DNA of 11,199 bases from Chamaesiphon sp. (lineage in GTDB: Bacteria > Cyanobacteriota > Cyanobacteriia > Cyanobacteriales > Chamaesiphonaceae): assembly GCA_026786125.1 (NCBI GenBank), contig JAJAYU010000381.1:1-11199 (forward strand), given 5' to 3'. Shown in pieces: positions 3,012 through 10,338 of this stretch. The notes beneath the pieces are model-generated. The model was not told the DNA's origin. It saw only the letters and a program-made list of their open reading frames with translations, and searched no databases. Numbering within the stretch: position 1 is the first letter of the stretch; the number at the start of each line of letters is the position of its first letter. Both the position numbers and the translations under genes were made by a program.

Positions 3012-3764
3012 CTAAATAAGATCGATCATCGGGGCAACTTGAACAACTTGAGCGTGGGAGTGAATCACCAATTGACCTTGTGGAGCCTCTAATTTGTATA
3101 ACTGGAGCGATAAACCTGGAATAATAAAATTTCGCAGATCTAGTAAAGCTGTAAGCTGTTCAACAATAACGGACACGAAATCTAGATTTAAACCTTGCCC
3201 TTTGATCGCTAAAATCTCCAAAGAGATACGATCTCCATCCTCTTGAATTTTAGGTATAGCAGTTACCGAAAGTTTTTTGATTTCAGTTTGATCCGCTAAG
3301 AGAAAATCAATATTTATCACAAACTTGTTGTCACCAGGTAGATTTACGATCACTTGTTGGACAGTGACAATTATCTCCTGTCCATTCATGATCATTTTCA
3401 AGCCACGTAATTTTGCTTGAATATAGTCGGATCTAAAAGCACGATTTAGATCGGTTTGGGTCAACACAATCAGGGCTTCAGCATCCGTTGGATGAATTAG
3501 TTCGATATTGCCAAAGACTGCACTAAATGGATCGATCCCAACTTTGCCAATACTTACTTCGAGGGTTTCCATTCGCAGATCTTGCTGCATTACCAATCCC
3601 TTGCCAGAGATTGTGACAGAATCTAATTTCCCCTGCACGAGCTTCCCAGGATTGGTACGAATATCAACATCGATCGATTCAGCTTCATCTAACTGATTAG
3701 CAATGCTCATTTCTACTACCTTGCTCAACGCTTTATTCCCTAAGTTTGGCCGATCTATTTCCAT
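3012..3764 (-). CDS. DUF2993 / LmeA-like lipid-binding protein
   Basis: A 250-residue protein of the DUF2993 family, whose actinobacterial member LmeA binds phospholipid and helps make lipomannan. Family features are present in order. Residues 12-50 contain NKALSKVVEMSIANQLDEAE followed by DVDIRTNPGKLVQGKLDSV. Residues 52-62 contain the ISGKGLVMQQD turn. Residues 70-100 carry VSIGKVGIDPFSAVFGNIEL. Residues 100-120 contain VLTQTDLNRAFRSDYI. The C-terminal strands (about 190-235) complete a beta-rich tubular lipid-binding fold. Unlike LmeA it shows no signal peptide, so it probably acts on the cytoplasmic side, perhaps at the thylakoid or inner membrane. Cyanobacteria carry several such paralogues of unknown task. 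It sits alone between intergenic gaps and lies next to the carotenoid protein pair, but no link is proven. Confidence 0.88.
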   Translation of the reverse strand: MEIDRPNLGNKALSKVVEMSIANQLDEAESIDVDIRTNPGKLVQGKLDSVTISGKGLVMQQDLRMETLEVSIGKVGIDPFSAVFGNIELIHPTDAEALIVLTQTDLNRAFRSDYIQAKLRGLKMIMNGQEIIVTVQQVIVNLPGDNKFVINIDFLLADQTEIKKLSVTAIPKIQEDGDRISLEILAIKGQGLNLDFVSVIVEQLTALLDLRNFIIPGLSLQLYKLEAPQGQLVIHSHAQVVQVAPMIDLI

Positions 3765-3840
3765 ATTTTGATTGTTTTGGGGCTAAGTTTGTGAACTAAA
3801 GGGATTGATAAATACTTGGGATGGATATTTATGCCAATAA

Positions 3841-4308
3841 TTAAATACGACTAAAACTGAGTAAGTCTTCTAAAGAAGCTAATAATTTTACTTCTACCAG
3901 CATAATTTCTTTAACAGCATTTAGCTCGATCAACCAACTGATATTGACGGTAAACCAGTTCATTTCGACTTTACCTTGAATCTGATATTTAGTGCGATCG
4001 CTATCCACTAGGTTAGCTGCGGTGTCAGTACTCGTTACTATTGCTCCATACTCTGGCAAAAATTTGACACCGATCGCTTCTTTTTGCAAATATTCAGTAA
4101 TTGCCTCTCTTCCCTGAAGCTGTTTATCAAATGGAGGAATTAGATATCCTTGCTCTGCGAATAACTCAGCAGTTGTGACAAATTCGCCATTATTCAATCT
4201 GGTAAAATACTCACAAATTACGGGTTCGTGTATCCCCTCAATCTCGACTTTTGGACTCACAGATTCCGGTACTAATGGAGATGGAACGGTTAATGAATTA
4301 ATTTTCAT
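3841..4308 (-). CDS. CTDH: orange carotenoid protein C-terminal domain homologue (NTF2-like)
   Basis: A 155-residue protein from the ATG at 4306-4308. In-frame ATGs at 4347 and 4374 would add 13 or 22 residues of unfamiliar sequence, and no start has a good ribosome site. It has the NTF2-like fold of the OCP C-terminal domain: KVEIEGIHEPVICEYF (20-35), AELFAEQGYLIPPF (47-60), then the GKVEMNWFTVNISWLIEL strand (112-129) and LLASLEDLLSF (142-152). By recalled OCP alignment, Tyr34, Trp118 and Trp125 match OCP Tyr201, Trp277 and Trp288. Tyr201 and Trp288 hydrogen-bond the carotenoid keto oxygen. CTDHs bind ketocarotenoid as dimers and can deliver it to HCPs. The only cysteine is Cys32, so a disulfide dimer like that of Anabaena CTDH may not form the same way. 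It is divergent from the HCP gene. Confidence 0.9.
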   Translation of the reverse strand: MKINSLTVPSPLVPESVSPKVEIEGIHEPVICEYFTRLNNGEFVTTAELFAEQGYLIPPFDKQLQGREAITEYLQKEAIGVKFLPEYGAIVTSTDTAANLVDSDRTKYQIQGKVEMNWFTVNISWLIELNAVKEIMLVEVKLLASLEDLLSFSRI

Positions 4309-4466
4309 AAATATTAATTGAATATTTCCACGACCTAATCTACCCATGTAAACACAAACATTAGTTATTTCCATCTATCTTTAGATTGATCGCAATATCC
4401 TCCTAAAGTGAGTATTAAATGCTCTGGATAATTACTATCGTGGAGAAGACCAATTAGAATCCGATT
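4309..4466. promoter_or_regulatory. Shared divergent upstream region of the CTDH and HCP genes
   Basis: These 158 bp separate the start codons of the two carotenoid protein genes and must hold both promoters if the chosen starts are right. I see -10-like gataat (4427-4432) and tattaa (4413-4418) on +, but no convincingly spaced -35. The minus strand carries a strong but orphan Shine-Dalgarno (aggagg, within 4395-4407). On + a ggaga at about 4442 lies roughly 17 nt from the HCP start. No operator is assigned. Confidence 0.45.
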
Positions 4467-4967
4467 ATGACAACTACAACTTCCAATATTAGCCCTGAAT
4501 TAGCTTCAGCTTTTACCGCTTTATCGACAGATCAACAGCTTGCACTACTGTGGTTTATCTACAAAGAAACTGGTAAATCGATTACACCTGCGGCACCTGG
4601 AGCTAGCACCGCTGCCCCAACCATTGCGGAAGGATTATTCAAGCAAGTGGCCGAAATGAGCCATGATGAACAGTTACAAGTCCAGCGCGATCTGATCGAG
4701 CATAAAAATAACTTAATTAGCCGCGAGTATGGTGCATTAAGCGATACCACAAAATTATTGTTCTGGTATCTATTGGCGCAGGGTATGGATCGGACTGAAA
4801 TTATCCCGATGCCAGATAACTATACCCTCGAACCTCAAGCAGCCCAGTGCTTGCAACAACTCCAACAACTCGAACAGTCTCAACAGATTACCATGCTACG
4901 GGATCTAGTTGCGGGTATGGGAGTAGATCCCAGCTCTAGCCCTCACGATCCTGCGACAGGACTGTAA
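4467..4967 (+). CDS. HCP: helical carotenoid protein (OCP N-terminal domain homologue)
   Basis: A 166-residue all-helical carotenoid-binding protein equal to the OCP N-terminal domain without the C-terminal domain. Signature stretches are FTALSTDQQLALLWFIYKET (16-35), PAAPGAS (41-47), LLFWYLLAQGMDRTEIIPMP (97-116) and LEQSQQITMLRDLVAGMG (135-152). By recalled alignment Trp29, Tyr32, Trp100, Tyr101 and Arg145 match OCP Trp41, Tyr44, Trp110, Tyr111 and Arg155. The first four contact the carotenoid and the Arg is used for OCP binding to the phycobilisome. It ends with a short Pro/Ser tail where OCP would have its linker. HCPs quench singlet oxygen, and one Anabaena clade (HCP4) quenches phycobilisome fluorescence. 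HCP4 is also the one encoded beside a CTDH, so HCP4-type is a guess. A hairpin follows at 5031-5060. Confidence 0.93.
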   Translation: MTTTTSNISPELASAFTALSTDQQLALLWFIYKETGKSITPAAPGASTAAPTIAEGLFKQVAEMSHDEQLQVQRDLIEHKNNLISREYGALSDTTKLLFWYLLAQGMDRTEIIPMPDNYTLEPQAAQCLQQLQQLEQSQQITMLRDLVAGMGVDPSSSPHDPATGL

Positions 4968-5030
4968 GTTTAAAATTCACAACTACTTCGAGACGATTTT
5001 CCCATAGAATTAGCTCGATCGAGCGAAATT

Positions 5031-5060
5031 AGACCCTACGATCCGACGATCATAGGGTCT
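5031..5060 (+). terminator. Hairpin terminator after HCP gene
   Basis: agaccctacgatc (5031-5043) pairs with gatcatagggtct (5048-5060), 12 of 13 positions, with a 4-nt loop. It lies 63 nt past the HCP stop. The following catactgcatatc is not a clean U-tract, but the stem is strong. A palindrome tagctcgatcgagc lies just upstream. The rest of 4968-5202 shows nothing I can name. Confidence 0.65.
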
Positions 5061-5202
5061 CATACTGCATATCTTTGTAAACAATTTTGTCCGCCAGAAA
5101 TAGCAAATTTAGGAGAAGCAAATATTGATAGCTATTCCTTTCAACAGATTACATAGCTAGGCTCGATCAAATAGGATCTTAGGTACAGCAAAAGATCGAA
5201 TT

Positions 5203-5979
5203 ATGAATACACCTAGCACCTCGACCCAAAAACCATCAAGATGGCAAATAGCAACAATCGCAGCAATCGGATTTGCGATTATTTGGAATTTTTTGACCAA
5301 TTGGTTTCCACCGACAGGAGTCTCGGTTGCCGAATTATCGAATACTGTTTTTGCTGATGTGAAAATCATCCCCGCAAACTATACCTTCTCGATCTGGGGC
5401 TTAATTTACATCGGGTTAGTTGCTTTTGGTTTTTATCAACTAGATTCCCGTCGTGCAGACAATCTACCCTTACAACAAACGCGCCCTTGGATTGTACTAG
5501 CATCCCTGCTCCAATCTGGGTGGATTTTATTATTTTTATATCAACAAATGATCCTGTCTTCATTAGCAATGCTGGGCATTGTTTGGGCATTAATTAAATG
5601 TTACCGTAGCCTCCATCCTTTGCAACCAAATCTTCGTCAATTACATCCCACTTGGGTACCAAGTGTATTTAGTATCTATCTTGGTTGGATTAGCGTTGCC
5701 ACGATCGTTAATATCGCTTCTACCCTCGATAGTTTTGGCTGGCAAGGTGCGCCGTTAGCTCCTAGTCTGTGGACATTATTGATGATCGCAATCAGCGTGG
5801 GTTTGGCATTAATCCTGCTTCGAGTCTATGCAGATCGAGCTTTTAGCGGCGTAATTATGTGGGCAATTGGGGGAATTACGATCGCTAATTTAGACGATCC
5901 AGCAATTACCCTCGGTGGCTTACTCTCGATCGCAATGCTAGCAATATTTACGATCCAACGATCGAATTCACCTGTTTAA
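5203..5979 (+). CDS. Tryptophan-rich TspO-like membrane protein
   Basis: A 258-residue multi-pass protein with about seven or eight hydrophobic segments (roughly 16-35, 62-80, 96-114, 117-134, 151-170, 188-208, 215-230, 235-250) and 12 tryptophans. The motif PANYTFSIWGLIYIGLVAFG (57-76) corresponds to the PPxWxFxxVWxxLY-type helix of TspO/MBR tryptophan-rich sensory proteins. It is longer than canonical five-helix TspO (about 155-160 residues) and belongs to the longer 'tryptophan-rich sensory protein' branch common in cyanobacteria. TspO proteins bind tetrapyrroles and are tied to stress and, in some phototrophs, pigment gene control. Function of the longer branch is not established. The ATG at 5203 lacks a clear ribosome site. 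Its last 32 bp overlap the convergent transglutaminase gene. Confidence 0.82.
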   Translation: MNTPSTSTQKPSRWQIATIAAIGFAIIWNFLTNWFPPTGVSVAELSNTVFADVKIIPANYTFSIWGLIYIGLVAFGFYQLDSRRADNLPLQQTRPWIVLASLLQSGWILLFLYQQMILSSLAMLGIVWALIKCYRSLHPLQPNLRQLHPTWVPSVFSIYLGWISVATIVNIASTLDSFGWQGAPLAPSLWTLLMIAISVGLALILLRVYADRAFSGVIMWAIGGITIANLDDPAITLGGLLSIAMLAIFTIQRSNSPV

Positions 5980-8056: not shown

Positions 8057-8096
8057 AATTAATAATTATCAATTATCAATTAATAATTATCAATTA
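8057..8096. repeat. AT-rich direct repeat running into a stop codon
   Basis: aattaataattatcaatt occurs at 8057-8074 and again at 8078-8095, a 21-nt period. Within it tatcaatta occurs three times (8067-8075, 8074-8082, 8088-8096). The last copy includes the TAA stop of the minus-strand gene at 8094. The same 9-mer flanks the repeat cluster at 316-379. Confidence 0.7.
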
Positions 8097-9542
8097 ACTT
8101 GCGACTGGGAGTGCAGCTCGACCTGGTTCTGGAGCGCGTAAGGTTGCTTCGCTAAATTGGGGTGTTTTGCTGTAAACCGATGAAAGTAGCACTTCCAACA
8201 TGCCAGCGCGTCTAGCAGCCTCGATCGATTGATGGGTAATTAATTCACCCGTATTTAGAATCACCCGATCCTGTCGGTCTAAAATTACGCGGGTAGTCGG
8301 ACGACCGAGGGCAGCTTTGATGTGCTGCTCTTCGAGGGCATGAGTGGTCTGTGTCCGCAGTTTCTGACCCGTTTGTTTAGCCCATTCCATCGATTGAGAA
8401 AAGCCGCTCTGAACCCGATCTCCTGCCCGATCTGCGGCATCGCCTGCGGCATCTAATGCCTCATTCGCACTCGATTTCGCAGCGGTAGTAGTAGAAACCC
8501 CGACAGAGCGCAATAGGGCTTCTTCAAGGTGATATGTCTGCGCCCGCTCGATCGTTTTTTCAGTGACAATTTGACCGGGTGCCGCCACGATTAAACCATC
8601 ACGGGTACGTACTACTGCCGCAGCTCTCCGCCCCAAGGCTTGGTTGATCGTGTAGTAAGCTGTTGCCCCATTGGTTTTCGTGGAGATATTCTGTGCGACA
8701 TCTTGGCCGATTTCCTTTGCCCGTTGCATAGCATCTTCAGTGAGATTGCCACCAGTCGCACGATAGAGCCGATCCAAAACGCCTAGTTGTTCGGCAACAG
8801 TAATGTCTGGGATGGTCACTAATTTGTTTGTTTCTATCAATACAGATCCATCGGGGCGCAAGACTGTCGATTGAGTTTTTCGACCTAAGACAAATCGTTT
8901 TTGAAGGTCAGGATCGACGATCGCATTAGCAATCTGAGTCTTAGTCTGACGGCTAACTTCAGAGATCTGTTCCCCTGCTTTGTGAGCGGCGGCTTGCACC
9001 TTGTCGCTAGTATCCTGAATGGCGGCTTTAATCCCGCCCACTTGTTCTTCCATCAAGTCCGCCACCATCGCGGGGACAAAGGCGTAATCCTCGCCAATAC
9101 GGAGGGTTTGGACGGCGGGGACAAAGGATCTACCGGAATAAGCATCGGCAAAAATCCCACCAGAAACTTCATAACCTTCGATCACACCTGTGGTTTCATC
9201 GAAGTAGAGATCGACCATTTTGCCTAAATCTTGACCGGATACAGTCATGATATGGGTGCCATTCATGATGTTATTCCGATCGAGAATTGCCGCTACTTGG
9301 GAATTGAGTTTTGCGGAAATGATATATTCTGCTTTGCTGACGATCGCTGCATCCATGCCGATCGATTGAATCGCCGCTAGCGGCAGTACTCTAGCATCAC
9401 TCATGAAGCCCTTTTCTTGGACGAGCAAAGCTACTAAGTAATTACGCTCTTGATCAAAAATTAAATCTCTAACTCTACCGACTTTTTCGCCAGTATCATA
9501 GGCAACAATCGGTTTGCCAATAACATCACTACCTTTACGCAT
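8094..9542 (-). CDS. Tandem PRC-barrel protein with three C-terminal repeats
   Basis: A 482-residue protein. Residues 1-75 form PRC-barrel 1 (VIGKPIVAYDTGEKVGRVRD) and residues 90-160 form PRC-barrel 2 (DLGKMVDLYFDETTGVIEGY). A helical, Ala/Gln-rich linker follows at about 162-210. Three copies of a repeat of about 46 residues come next: 216-262 (LGRKTQSTVLRPDGSVLIET), 301-346 (LGRRAAAVVRTRDGLIVAAP) and 409-456 (LGRPTTRVILDRQDRVILNT). They share the pattern LGR, V, D-G/R, V-I, G, I/V-T, I, A, L-x-x-L. Helical spacers at 265-298 and 355-405 separate them. Cyanobacterial proteins with such PRC domains are often labelled 'photosystem reaction center subunit H', but no reaction-centre role is shown. 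It has no signal peptide and is probably cytoplasmic. It is the full-length paralogue of the 647-1042 gene. Confidence 0.88.
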   Translation of the reverse strand: MRKGSDVIGKPIVAYDTGEKVGRVRDLIFDQERNYLVALLVQEKGFMSDARVLPLAAIQSIGMDAAIVSKAEYIISAKLNSQVAAILDRNNIMNGTHIMTVSGQDLGKMVDLYFDETTGVIEGYEVSGGIFADAYSGRSFVPAVQTLRIGEDYAFVPAMVADLMEEQVGGIKAAIQDTSDKVQAAAHKAGEQISEVSRQTKTQIANAIVDPDLQKRFVLGRKTQSTVLRPDGSVLIETNKLVTIPDITVAEQLGVLDRLYRATGGNLTEDAMQRAKEIGQDVAQNISTKTNGATAYYTINQALGRRAAAVVRTRDGLIVAAPGQIVTEKTIERAQTYHLEEALLRSVGVSTTTAAKSSANEALDAAGDAADRAGDRVQSGFSQSMEWAKQTGQKLRTQTTHALEEQHIKAALGRPTTRVILDRQDRVILNTGELITHQSIEAARRAGMLEVLLSSVYSKTPQFSEATLRAPEPGRAALPVAS

Positions 9543-9879: not shown

Positions 9880-10215
9880 TTAGCGCAAGTCTTCTTTAGC
9901 ATTGCGGGCATTGCCTTCAACTTGTTTCGCTCGACCTTCTGCTACTTTTGTAGGGTCATCGGTGGCATTACCGATCATCTCTTCGGCTTTACCAGCAACC
10001 TTTGAAGCAGCGGCTTTCACCCGCTCTTTAGCTCCTTCAGCAAGATCGCCTGCTTTGTCTTTTAAGTCTTCTGCTGAGTTGCGAACATCAGCTTCAGCTT
10101 GTTTAGCTTGACCTTCATGGCGATCAGCATTACTACCAGCGACATTACCCATGCCTTCTTGTACTTTACCTTCAATGTTTTTAGCAGTTGCCTTAGCTCT
10201 TCCTTCGATACTCAT
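9880..10215 (-). CDS. Double CsbD-domain stress protein
   Basis: A 111-residue protein from the ATG at 10213-10215, giving MSIEGRAKATAKNIEGKVQE. The in-frame ATG at 10239 would add eight residues not seen in the family. Two CsbD units follow each other: about 1-52 (NIEGKVQEGMGNVAGSNAD, then EGQAKQAEADVRN) and about 60-111 (KVAGKAEEMIGNATDDPTKV, then EGRAKQVEGNARNAKEDLR). CsbD of Bacillus is a sigma-B general stress protein. The family is tiny, polar, Ala/Glu/Lys-rich, probably natively flexible, and induced by salt, drought or phosphate stress. Usual length is 60-70 residues with one unit, so this is a duplication. No cysteine or enzymatic motif is present. It is a monocistronic unit with its own terminator. 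Confidence 0.92.
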   Translation of the reverse strand: MSIEGRAKATAKNIEGKVQEGMGNVAGSNADRHEGQAKQAEADVRNSAEDLKDKAGDLAEGAKERVKAAASKVAGKAEEMIGNATDDPTKVAEGRAKQVEGNARNAKEDLR

Positions 10216-10338
10216 GATAAATAATCCCGTAAGTTTCAATTTAAGAATGAAAAATTAACTAGTTGTTTTTAGTTAACTCAGCTTCAAACTTGTTTATAGC
10301 TTTAGTTTACGAAACTCAGCAGGTATCTCCATCTACCA

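Follow-up and report, generated by a model that had tools for sequence, protein, structure and literature searches.

The window, that is, the whole stretch of 11,199 nucleotides that was analysed, is a single contig of an incomplete (77%) 2.7 Mb genome of Chamaesiphon sp., a stream cyanobacterium. Two ORFs stand head to head on opposite strands within it (Table 1): one encodes an HCP, homologous to the N-terminal domain of the orange carotenoid protein (OCP), and the other a homologue of the OCP C-terminal domain (CTDH). The starts, at 4467 and 4308, are separated by 158 bp, so that families, order and spacing are all as in the original prediction. An in-frame ATG further upstream, at 4374, would lengthen the CTDH to 177 aa; we prefer the start at 4308 because in three relatives (L004, L005 and L006) an ATG occupies the equivalent position and is not preceded by any in-frame start codon.

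Table 1. Genes and intergenic features of the HCP/CTDH locus, in window coordinates
Feature	Position	Strand	Evidence or remark
HCP, HCP1 clade, 166 aa	4467-4967	+	Carot_N 196.6 bits; 5fcy/5fcx (HCP1) 177 bits; trees
CTDH (OCP C-terminal-domain homologue), 155 aa	3841-4308	-	PDB match All4940, E 7e-28; alignment of 105 CTDHs
Palindromic site 1 (CTNNCTNNAGNNAG, 7 of 8 fixed positions)	4375-4388	.	centre at about -66.5 (hcp) and about -42.5 (ctdh), provided that the -10 predictions hold
Palindromic site 2 (CTNNCTNNAGNNAG, 7 of 8 fixed positions)	4399-4412	.	centre at about -42.5 (hcp) and about -66.5 (ctdh), provided that the -10 predictions hold
Predicted hcp -10 hexamer, TATCGT	4436-4441	+	30 bp from site-2 centre; no TG before it
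Tentative ctdh -10 hexamer, TTACAT, with TGN before it	4346-4351	-	30 bp from site-1 centre; mirrors the hcp side

In an OCP both domains are joined by a linker; here they are two ORFs on opposite strands, and a full-length OCP is found elsewhere in the same genome (contig C334, open frame of 350 aa). Comparison of the window with five relatives gave dN/dS values of 0.06-0.18 for hcp and 0.18-0.32 for ctdh, computable in four of the five comparisons per gene and with dS saturated in some. Both genes thus look to be under constraint, and ctdh evolves faster than hcp.

Clade of the HCP

The HCP is a single Carot_N domain (PF09150; Pfam cut-off 25 bits) with no C-terminal domain. Its best PDB relative is Anabaena HCP1/RCP (5fcy, 177.1 bits; 5fcx, 176.9 bits), with which it has an ASTxxP insertion in common; the score against 8qx5, a chain taken as HCP4-type from its GAAR motif and tree position and not from the literature, was 143.2 bits. 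HCP1 is likewise the best PDB relative of the HCP in G032, a divergent pair from outside the genus. Membership of the HCP1 clade was judged by grouping with All1123 (5fcx), apart from the HCP2 and HCP4-type references. In a tree of 76 rows, all eight divergent HCPs and the 5fcx reference fell in one clade of 14 rows (support 99/97), within which a further named clade may lie, named references for HCP3 and HCP5-9 being absent from the tree. The HCPs of tandem pairs fell outside this clade; most form a grade near 8qx5, and two, in the order CTDH then HCP, belong to another clade.

Positions 60 and 147 were placed on the HCP by way of an OCP sequence, and the residue assignments assume that this placement is right. 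In the alignment the HCP reads GASTAAP where 8qx5 has GAAR, and Gln where 8qx5 has Phe, and so lacks both Arg60 and Phe147. These residues (Synechocystis OCP numbering) are features of HCP4 and HCP5 (PMC12059629). Phycobilisome quenching is not a role that we would expect of this HCP, since it falls with HCP1 and has neither residue. Its membership of the HCP family stood up to phylogenetic placement, which put it in the HCP1 clade; the likeness to HCP4 drawn in the original prediction did not. To call the pair a split OCP is also misleading, given that the HCP groups with HCP1 and not with OCP N-terminal domains, and that the genome has an intact OCP.

Residues and placement of the CTDH

For the CTDH, searched in its 177-aa form, neither Pfam nor NCBIfam gave a family at E 0.001. 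The PDB matches were to All4940 (AnaCTDH, the Anabaena CTDH), at 7e-28, and to OCP chains, at 4e-19 to 2e-15. A Pfam NTF2 (PF02136) search of the CTDH's own genome returned no match; because the window CTDH itself went unmatched, this search is no test for CTDHs.

The equivalents of Tyr26 and Trp109, which contact the carotenoid, are kept in all 105 aligned CTDHs, the AnaCTDH reference among them, which bears out for the CTDH the prediction that the contact residues are retained. Four residues are missing after position 103 (NWF----TVN, against PWFGDSVGIN in the OCP of the same genome), a deletion that is stated to be a CTDH hallmark (PMC6123778). The redox Cys103 that marks CTDH clade 2, with its redox-locked dimer, is replaced by Phe. 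Across the 105-CTDH alignment, residue 103 is Phe in all nine divergent CTDHs and Cys in 25 of the 44 from HCP-then-CTDH tandems. The CTDHs of the Chamaesiphon pairs and that of G032 make up one clade on a long stem (100/100).

Frequency of the divergent arrangement

A separate CTDH occurs in eight of the nine genomes of the genus, and in seven of these eight it forms a divergent pair with an HCP, a regularity from which we conclude that the pairing is not due to chance. In the eighth genome (G005), each gene is close to a contig end, on two different contigs, and has its 5' end directed outward. The flanking ORFs, read by eye, vary among the genus genomes while the linkage is kept.

We compared CTDH and HCP listings by hand in 60 genomes of relatives, with HCP type not a selection criterion. 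Outside the genus, two genomes (G032 and G025) had the divergent order, 12 had HCP then CTDH on one strand, two had CTDH then HCP and three had OCP then CTDH; the remaining genomes had no such neighbours or no CTDH. The HCP was of HCP1 type in every one of the nine divergent pairs of this survey. HCP4/5-type HCPs, where paired, were on the same strand as the CTDH and upstream of it, and they were unpaired in L048, L170, L171 and L173. Among the best 80 of 214 named CTDH loci, two were divergent, both of them Chamaesiphon and from the same genomes as G002 and G003; 34 were HCP-CTDH tandems, one was CTDH-HCP, one was OCP-CTDH, and 42 had no such neighbour (six of these 42 being on stretches of <6.5 kb). 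The two divergent loci against 34 tandems in the HCP-then-CTDH order agree with the prediction that the divergent order is uncommon.

Another survey, selected for HCP1-type HCPs, started from the 64 of 388 genomes of the class with an HCP1-type match at E 1e-52 (63 loci plus G027) and covered CTDHs beside the HCP. A divergent CTDH lay within about 1.5 kb in 11, a tandem or convergent one in none, and no CTDH was adjacent in 53, some of which are at a contig edge. In total, divergent pairs were found in 19 genomes with eight family codes (f1, f16, f23, f26, f33, f48, f55 and f56); the order recurs but is in the minority. A common origin of the divergent HCPs is possible (not rejected, AU p 0.385), and the 19 divergent CTDHs cluster with two others (84/74).

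Other neighbourhoods were seen along the way. A third arrangement, in which the CTDH precedes, on the same strand, an HCP from another clade, occurs at L015 (G029) and L019 (G055), both of one family (f20). The unpaired CTDHs of L011, L013, L016, L018, L020 and L022 lie beside a gene that, from the ORFs, we take to be queG-like, with what are presumably SpoIIE- or anti-sigma-like genes also nearby at some loci. A second ORF, weakly Carot_N-like (scores 32-51), lies beside the HCP1-type genes of L151, L152, L174, L186 and L221.

A double palindrome between the genes

The upstream regions of HCP1-type genes, paired and unpaired alike, have one element in common: the palindrome CTNNCTNNAGNNAG twice, mostly 24-25 bp apart, and then a hexamer TAnnnT. 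A profile of the element matches 4372-4442 in the window, which is itself a training sequence. TAnnnT is invariant in 39 aligned promoters. At loci scoring >=11, the distance between it and the centre of the second palindrome is 30-31 bp in 17 of the 18 divergent and 48 of the 53 unpaired ones. TG precedes the HCP-side hexamer, at 30 or 31 bp, in 36 of the 53 unpaired and six of the 18 divergent loci. With 100 shuffles per locus, p<=0.05 was reached at 52 of 81 loci, including 16 of the 19 divergent ones; the test is partly circular, the motif having been derived from the same loci. The best place is not always the aligned one (L008). The divergent loci L010, L247 and L291 miss this threshold, and L008 passes it only through a score tied with another place.

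Between 3750 and 5210, a scan for sigma-70 promoters and terminators found one promoter-like site, where 4.2 were expected, no terminator, and no sigma-70-type promoter at the predicted -10 sites; the scan is uninformative.

On the CTDH side, 10 of the 18 divergent loci have a TGN-hexamer at 30 bp from the site-1 centre, against four of the 53 unpaired ones. Ten distances (26-35) were looked at in this comparison; at 28 the counts are eight and seven, since the sequence reads TGTG. Eight of the ten loci with the mirrored hexamer are Chamaesiphon or L242. The hexamer is TTTNAT-like, a poor -10, and in the window its second base is T, not the usual A. We regard the mirrored hexamer as suggestive. 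We rejected the idea that every divergent pair uses the operator symmetrically, because only the Chamaesiphon clade and L242 have a clear mirrored hexamer. If ctdh does use it, each gene would have sites near -42 and -67, which are places usual for an activator. The original prediction allowed one shared operator to set the ratio of carrier to quencher, which is conjecture; the geometry of the palindromes suggests joint activation of hcp and ctdh. The proposal of a shared control region has thus gained support from a conserved double palindrome and a -10-like hexamer on the HCP side, with a mirrored hexamer on the CTDH side mostly in the Chamaesiphon clade.

FurC bound the all1123 promoter in one study (PMC10406281), but the FurC box given there (CAAAATCATAACGACTTTG) differs from the element. 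The OrrA papers give no motif in the parts available, and OrrA and SigB2 are only candidates. The available part of a BPROM-based promoter study in F. diplosiphon (PMC8739951) presents no such element. Our literature search covered open-licence papers, and in these we found no description of the element or of divergent HCP1-CTDH pairing.

The element at other loci

The profile, built from 39 sequences, was applied to a held-out set of 69 HCP loci outside training (187 kb), where it gave 37 matches at E<=0.05, 34 of them upstream of an HCP and no more than 250 bp from it. By HCP type, as assigned by short motif, the matches were 14/18 for HCP1-type, 10/12 for GASG-type, 9/25 for other, 1/18 for PELAP-type and 0/3 for HCP4/5-type. 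A second set of 79 loci (578 kb; 39 HCP4/5-type, 25 OCP, 21 PELAP-type and two other genes) yielded seven weak matches, three of which were upstream of PELAP-type HCPs. Over the two sets, the profile search found the element upstream of none of 42 HCP4/5-type and none of 25 OCP genes. Palindrome scores agree: values >=13 occur in 43 of 80 HCP1 upstream regions, 0 of 47 HCP4/5-type and 0 of 36 OCP, and further in 18 of 92 other HCPs and 11 of 104 CTDHs, the divergent ones included.

Across the 60 genomes there were 74 profile matches at E<=0.1, six of which are training sequences; comparison by hand with the Carot_N genes placed 19 of the other 68 directly upstream of such a gene and 49 not. 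The corresponding fractions are 10/25 at E<=0.01 and 8/9 at E<=0.001. Since the Carot_N genes so preceded include some from the HCP2 and GASG-type clades, the element is common to several HCP clades; it belongs to these and not to the divergent pair as such. Many of the 53 HCP1-match genomes that have no adjacent CTDH retain the element, and a nearby partner is therefore required neither by HCP1 nor by the element.

In three Chamaesiphon genomes a match lies just ahead of a short lipoprotein-like gene, similar in all three and perhaps part of the same regulon: L314 (G007, E 0.002), L325 (G003, 0.011) and L331 (G002, 0.67). Match L315 (G011:C183:38965-39028 -, E 0.0025) is near the start of a CsbD-like stress gene, as read by eye.

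Discussion

The closest relative of the HCP, Anabaena HCP1 (All1123, PDB 5fcx/5fcy), is of the same clade, is its best PDB match and has the same ASTxxP insertion; unlike it, the window HCP is paired with a CTDH. In Anabaena the HCP1 and CTDH genes are, we assume, apart. OCP differs in that its two domains, to which the HCP and CTDH are homologous, are here two proteins, with the HCP in the HCP1 clade and not among OCP N-terminal domains, and with the deletion specific to CTDHs. AnaCTDH has Tyr26, Trp109 and the four-residue deletion, as does the window CTDH. The HCP4-CTDH pair of Anabaena PCC 7120 also has an HCP adjoining a CTDH (PMC6123778), but in the window the HCP is HCP1-type, the genes are divergent, Phe replaces Cys103 and a double palindrome lies upstream, which the HCP4/5-type genes examined do not have. 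Euhalothece has an adjacent HCP5 and CTDH1 (ezr2074-ezr2075), with the CTDH in clade CTDH1 (PMC6971039); by its description it is set apart from the window pair in that its HCP is HCP5 and ours HCP1.

From the genes, their clades, their conserved arrangement and an element at a fixed distance from the -10-like hexamer of hcp, we think it on balance probable that the two proteins form a co-activated, reversible HCP1-CTDH carotenoid exchange pair, co-activation and exchange being the parts that we infer. The CTDH would take ketocarotenoid from the membrane and hand it to the HCP1-type HCP, a putative soluble carotenoid carrier or store. Given an HCP of HCP1 type and a CTDH without the redox Cys103, transfer would be expected to run in both directions, with no disulfide lock. 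An activator may bind the two palindromes of the shared intergenic region and so switch on both genes together; for each gene, one palindrome would be centred near -42 and the other near -67.

Much of this would follow if carotenoid passes between the window proteins as it does in vitro between HCP1 and CTDH of Anabaena. There, CTDH takes canthaxanthin from membranes and is required for holo-HCP1 to form; holo-CTDH loads HCP4 just as it loads HCP1; and carotenoid is returned to CTDH-C103F by HCP1 and not by HCP2-4 (PMC6123778). The retention of HCP1 beside a CTDH without Cys103 fits this return by HCP1 only, in a sample of four Anabaena HCPs (PMC6123778). Indirect support for joint stress control comes from N. 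punctiforme, in which the genes orthologous to All1123, All3221 and Alr4783 go up together with stress genes of the CsbD and PRC-barrel kinds, and another gene with a carotenoid-binding domain falls 11-fold (PMC7660261). The window has CsbD- and PRC-barrel-type genes as well. Reversible carotenoid exchange without a redox lock, under joint stress control, is by analogy the simplest function and the most likely one.

A possible objection is that the element governs the HCP only, and that the CTDH, expressed on its own and not co-regulated, is a neighbour maintained by descent or as a donor close at hand. The occurrence of the element upstream of unpaired HCP1-type genes and other HCP clades would fit this, as would the hexamer spacing, which over the whole set is fixed on the HCP side only. 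We nevertheless find it somewhat unlikely, given that the mirrored TGN-hexamer is so much more frequent at divergent loci than at unpaired ones (10/18 against 4/53), and that the genus keeps the linkage while the flanking ORFs differ by eye. Nor is the role of HCP1 agreed upon: Anabaena HCP1 is proposed to be a carrier and not a quencher of singlet oxygen or phycobilisomes (PMC6123778), whereas a review counts the HCPs of N. flagelliforme, HCP1 included, as good singlet oxygen quenchers (PMC12157317), which weakens a pure carrier role. The HCP might then be a stress-induced singlet oxygen quencher that is merely loaded by the CTDH, return flow being immaterial; the review and the stress co-induction in N. 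punctiforme (PMC7660261) speak for this, the carrier proposal speaks against it, and we hold it to be unlikely.

A split OCP, or an HCP4-like phycobilisome quencher with its carotenoid donor, seems to us quite improbable. The adjacency of HCP4 and CTDH in Anabaena (PMC6123778) is matched here, but so placed with HCP1, and lacking the two HCP4/5 residues (PMC12059629), the HCP is a poor candidate; paired HCP4/5-type HCPs are moreover tandem and without the element, and the OCP of this genome is intact. Least credible, and hardly to be entertained, is that the palindromes are an RNA leader structure and not operator DNA. They are inverted repeats close to a start codon, as such a leader would be, but they lie upstream of a TAnnnT that fits a -10, and hence outside the predicted transcript, and Rfam gave no match at E 1 in 3700-5300.

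Beyond the exchange pair, a wider reading is conceivable, although we would put it short of probable: the CTNNCTNNAGNNAG pair at about -42 and -67 before TAnnnT would define a regulon of non-quencher HCPs (HCP1, HCP2 and relatives) that leaves out HCP4/5 and OCP, and in one old lineage a bidirectional HCP1-CTDH promoter would have made of it a reversible shuttle. If so, a redox-insensitive CTDH is co-activated with HCP1, and the regulon is a stress regulon of those HCPs that do not quench phycobilisomes. A lineage with HCP1 beside a CTDH lacking Cys103 makes the carrier idea directly testable, and the shared promoter element, which fits the N. punctiforme data set, offers a handle on its regulator (PMC7660261).

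The window is rich in general-stress-type genes, at 1203-1772, 8094-9542 and 9880-10239 (-). Their products include a PRC-barrel protein, a CsbD-like protein and a protein of 189 aa, with no family match, that presumably resembles a general stress protein. Downstream of the HCP and on the same strand, 5203-5979 (+) encodes a protein of 258 aa whose only match, to HlyIII, is below threshold. A homologue of this protein is found by the pair in G004 as well (L004); another copy in that genome is preceded by a weak match to the element (L326, E 0.04).
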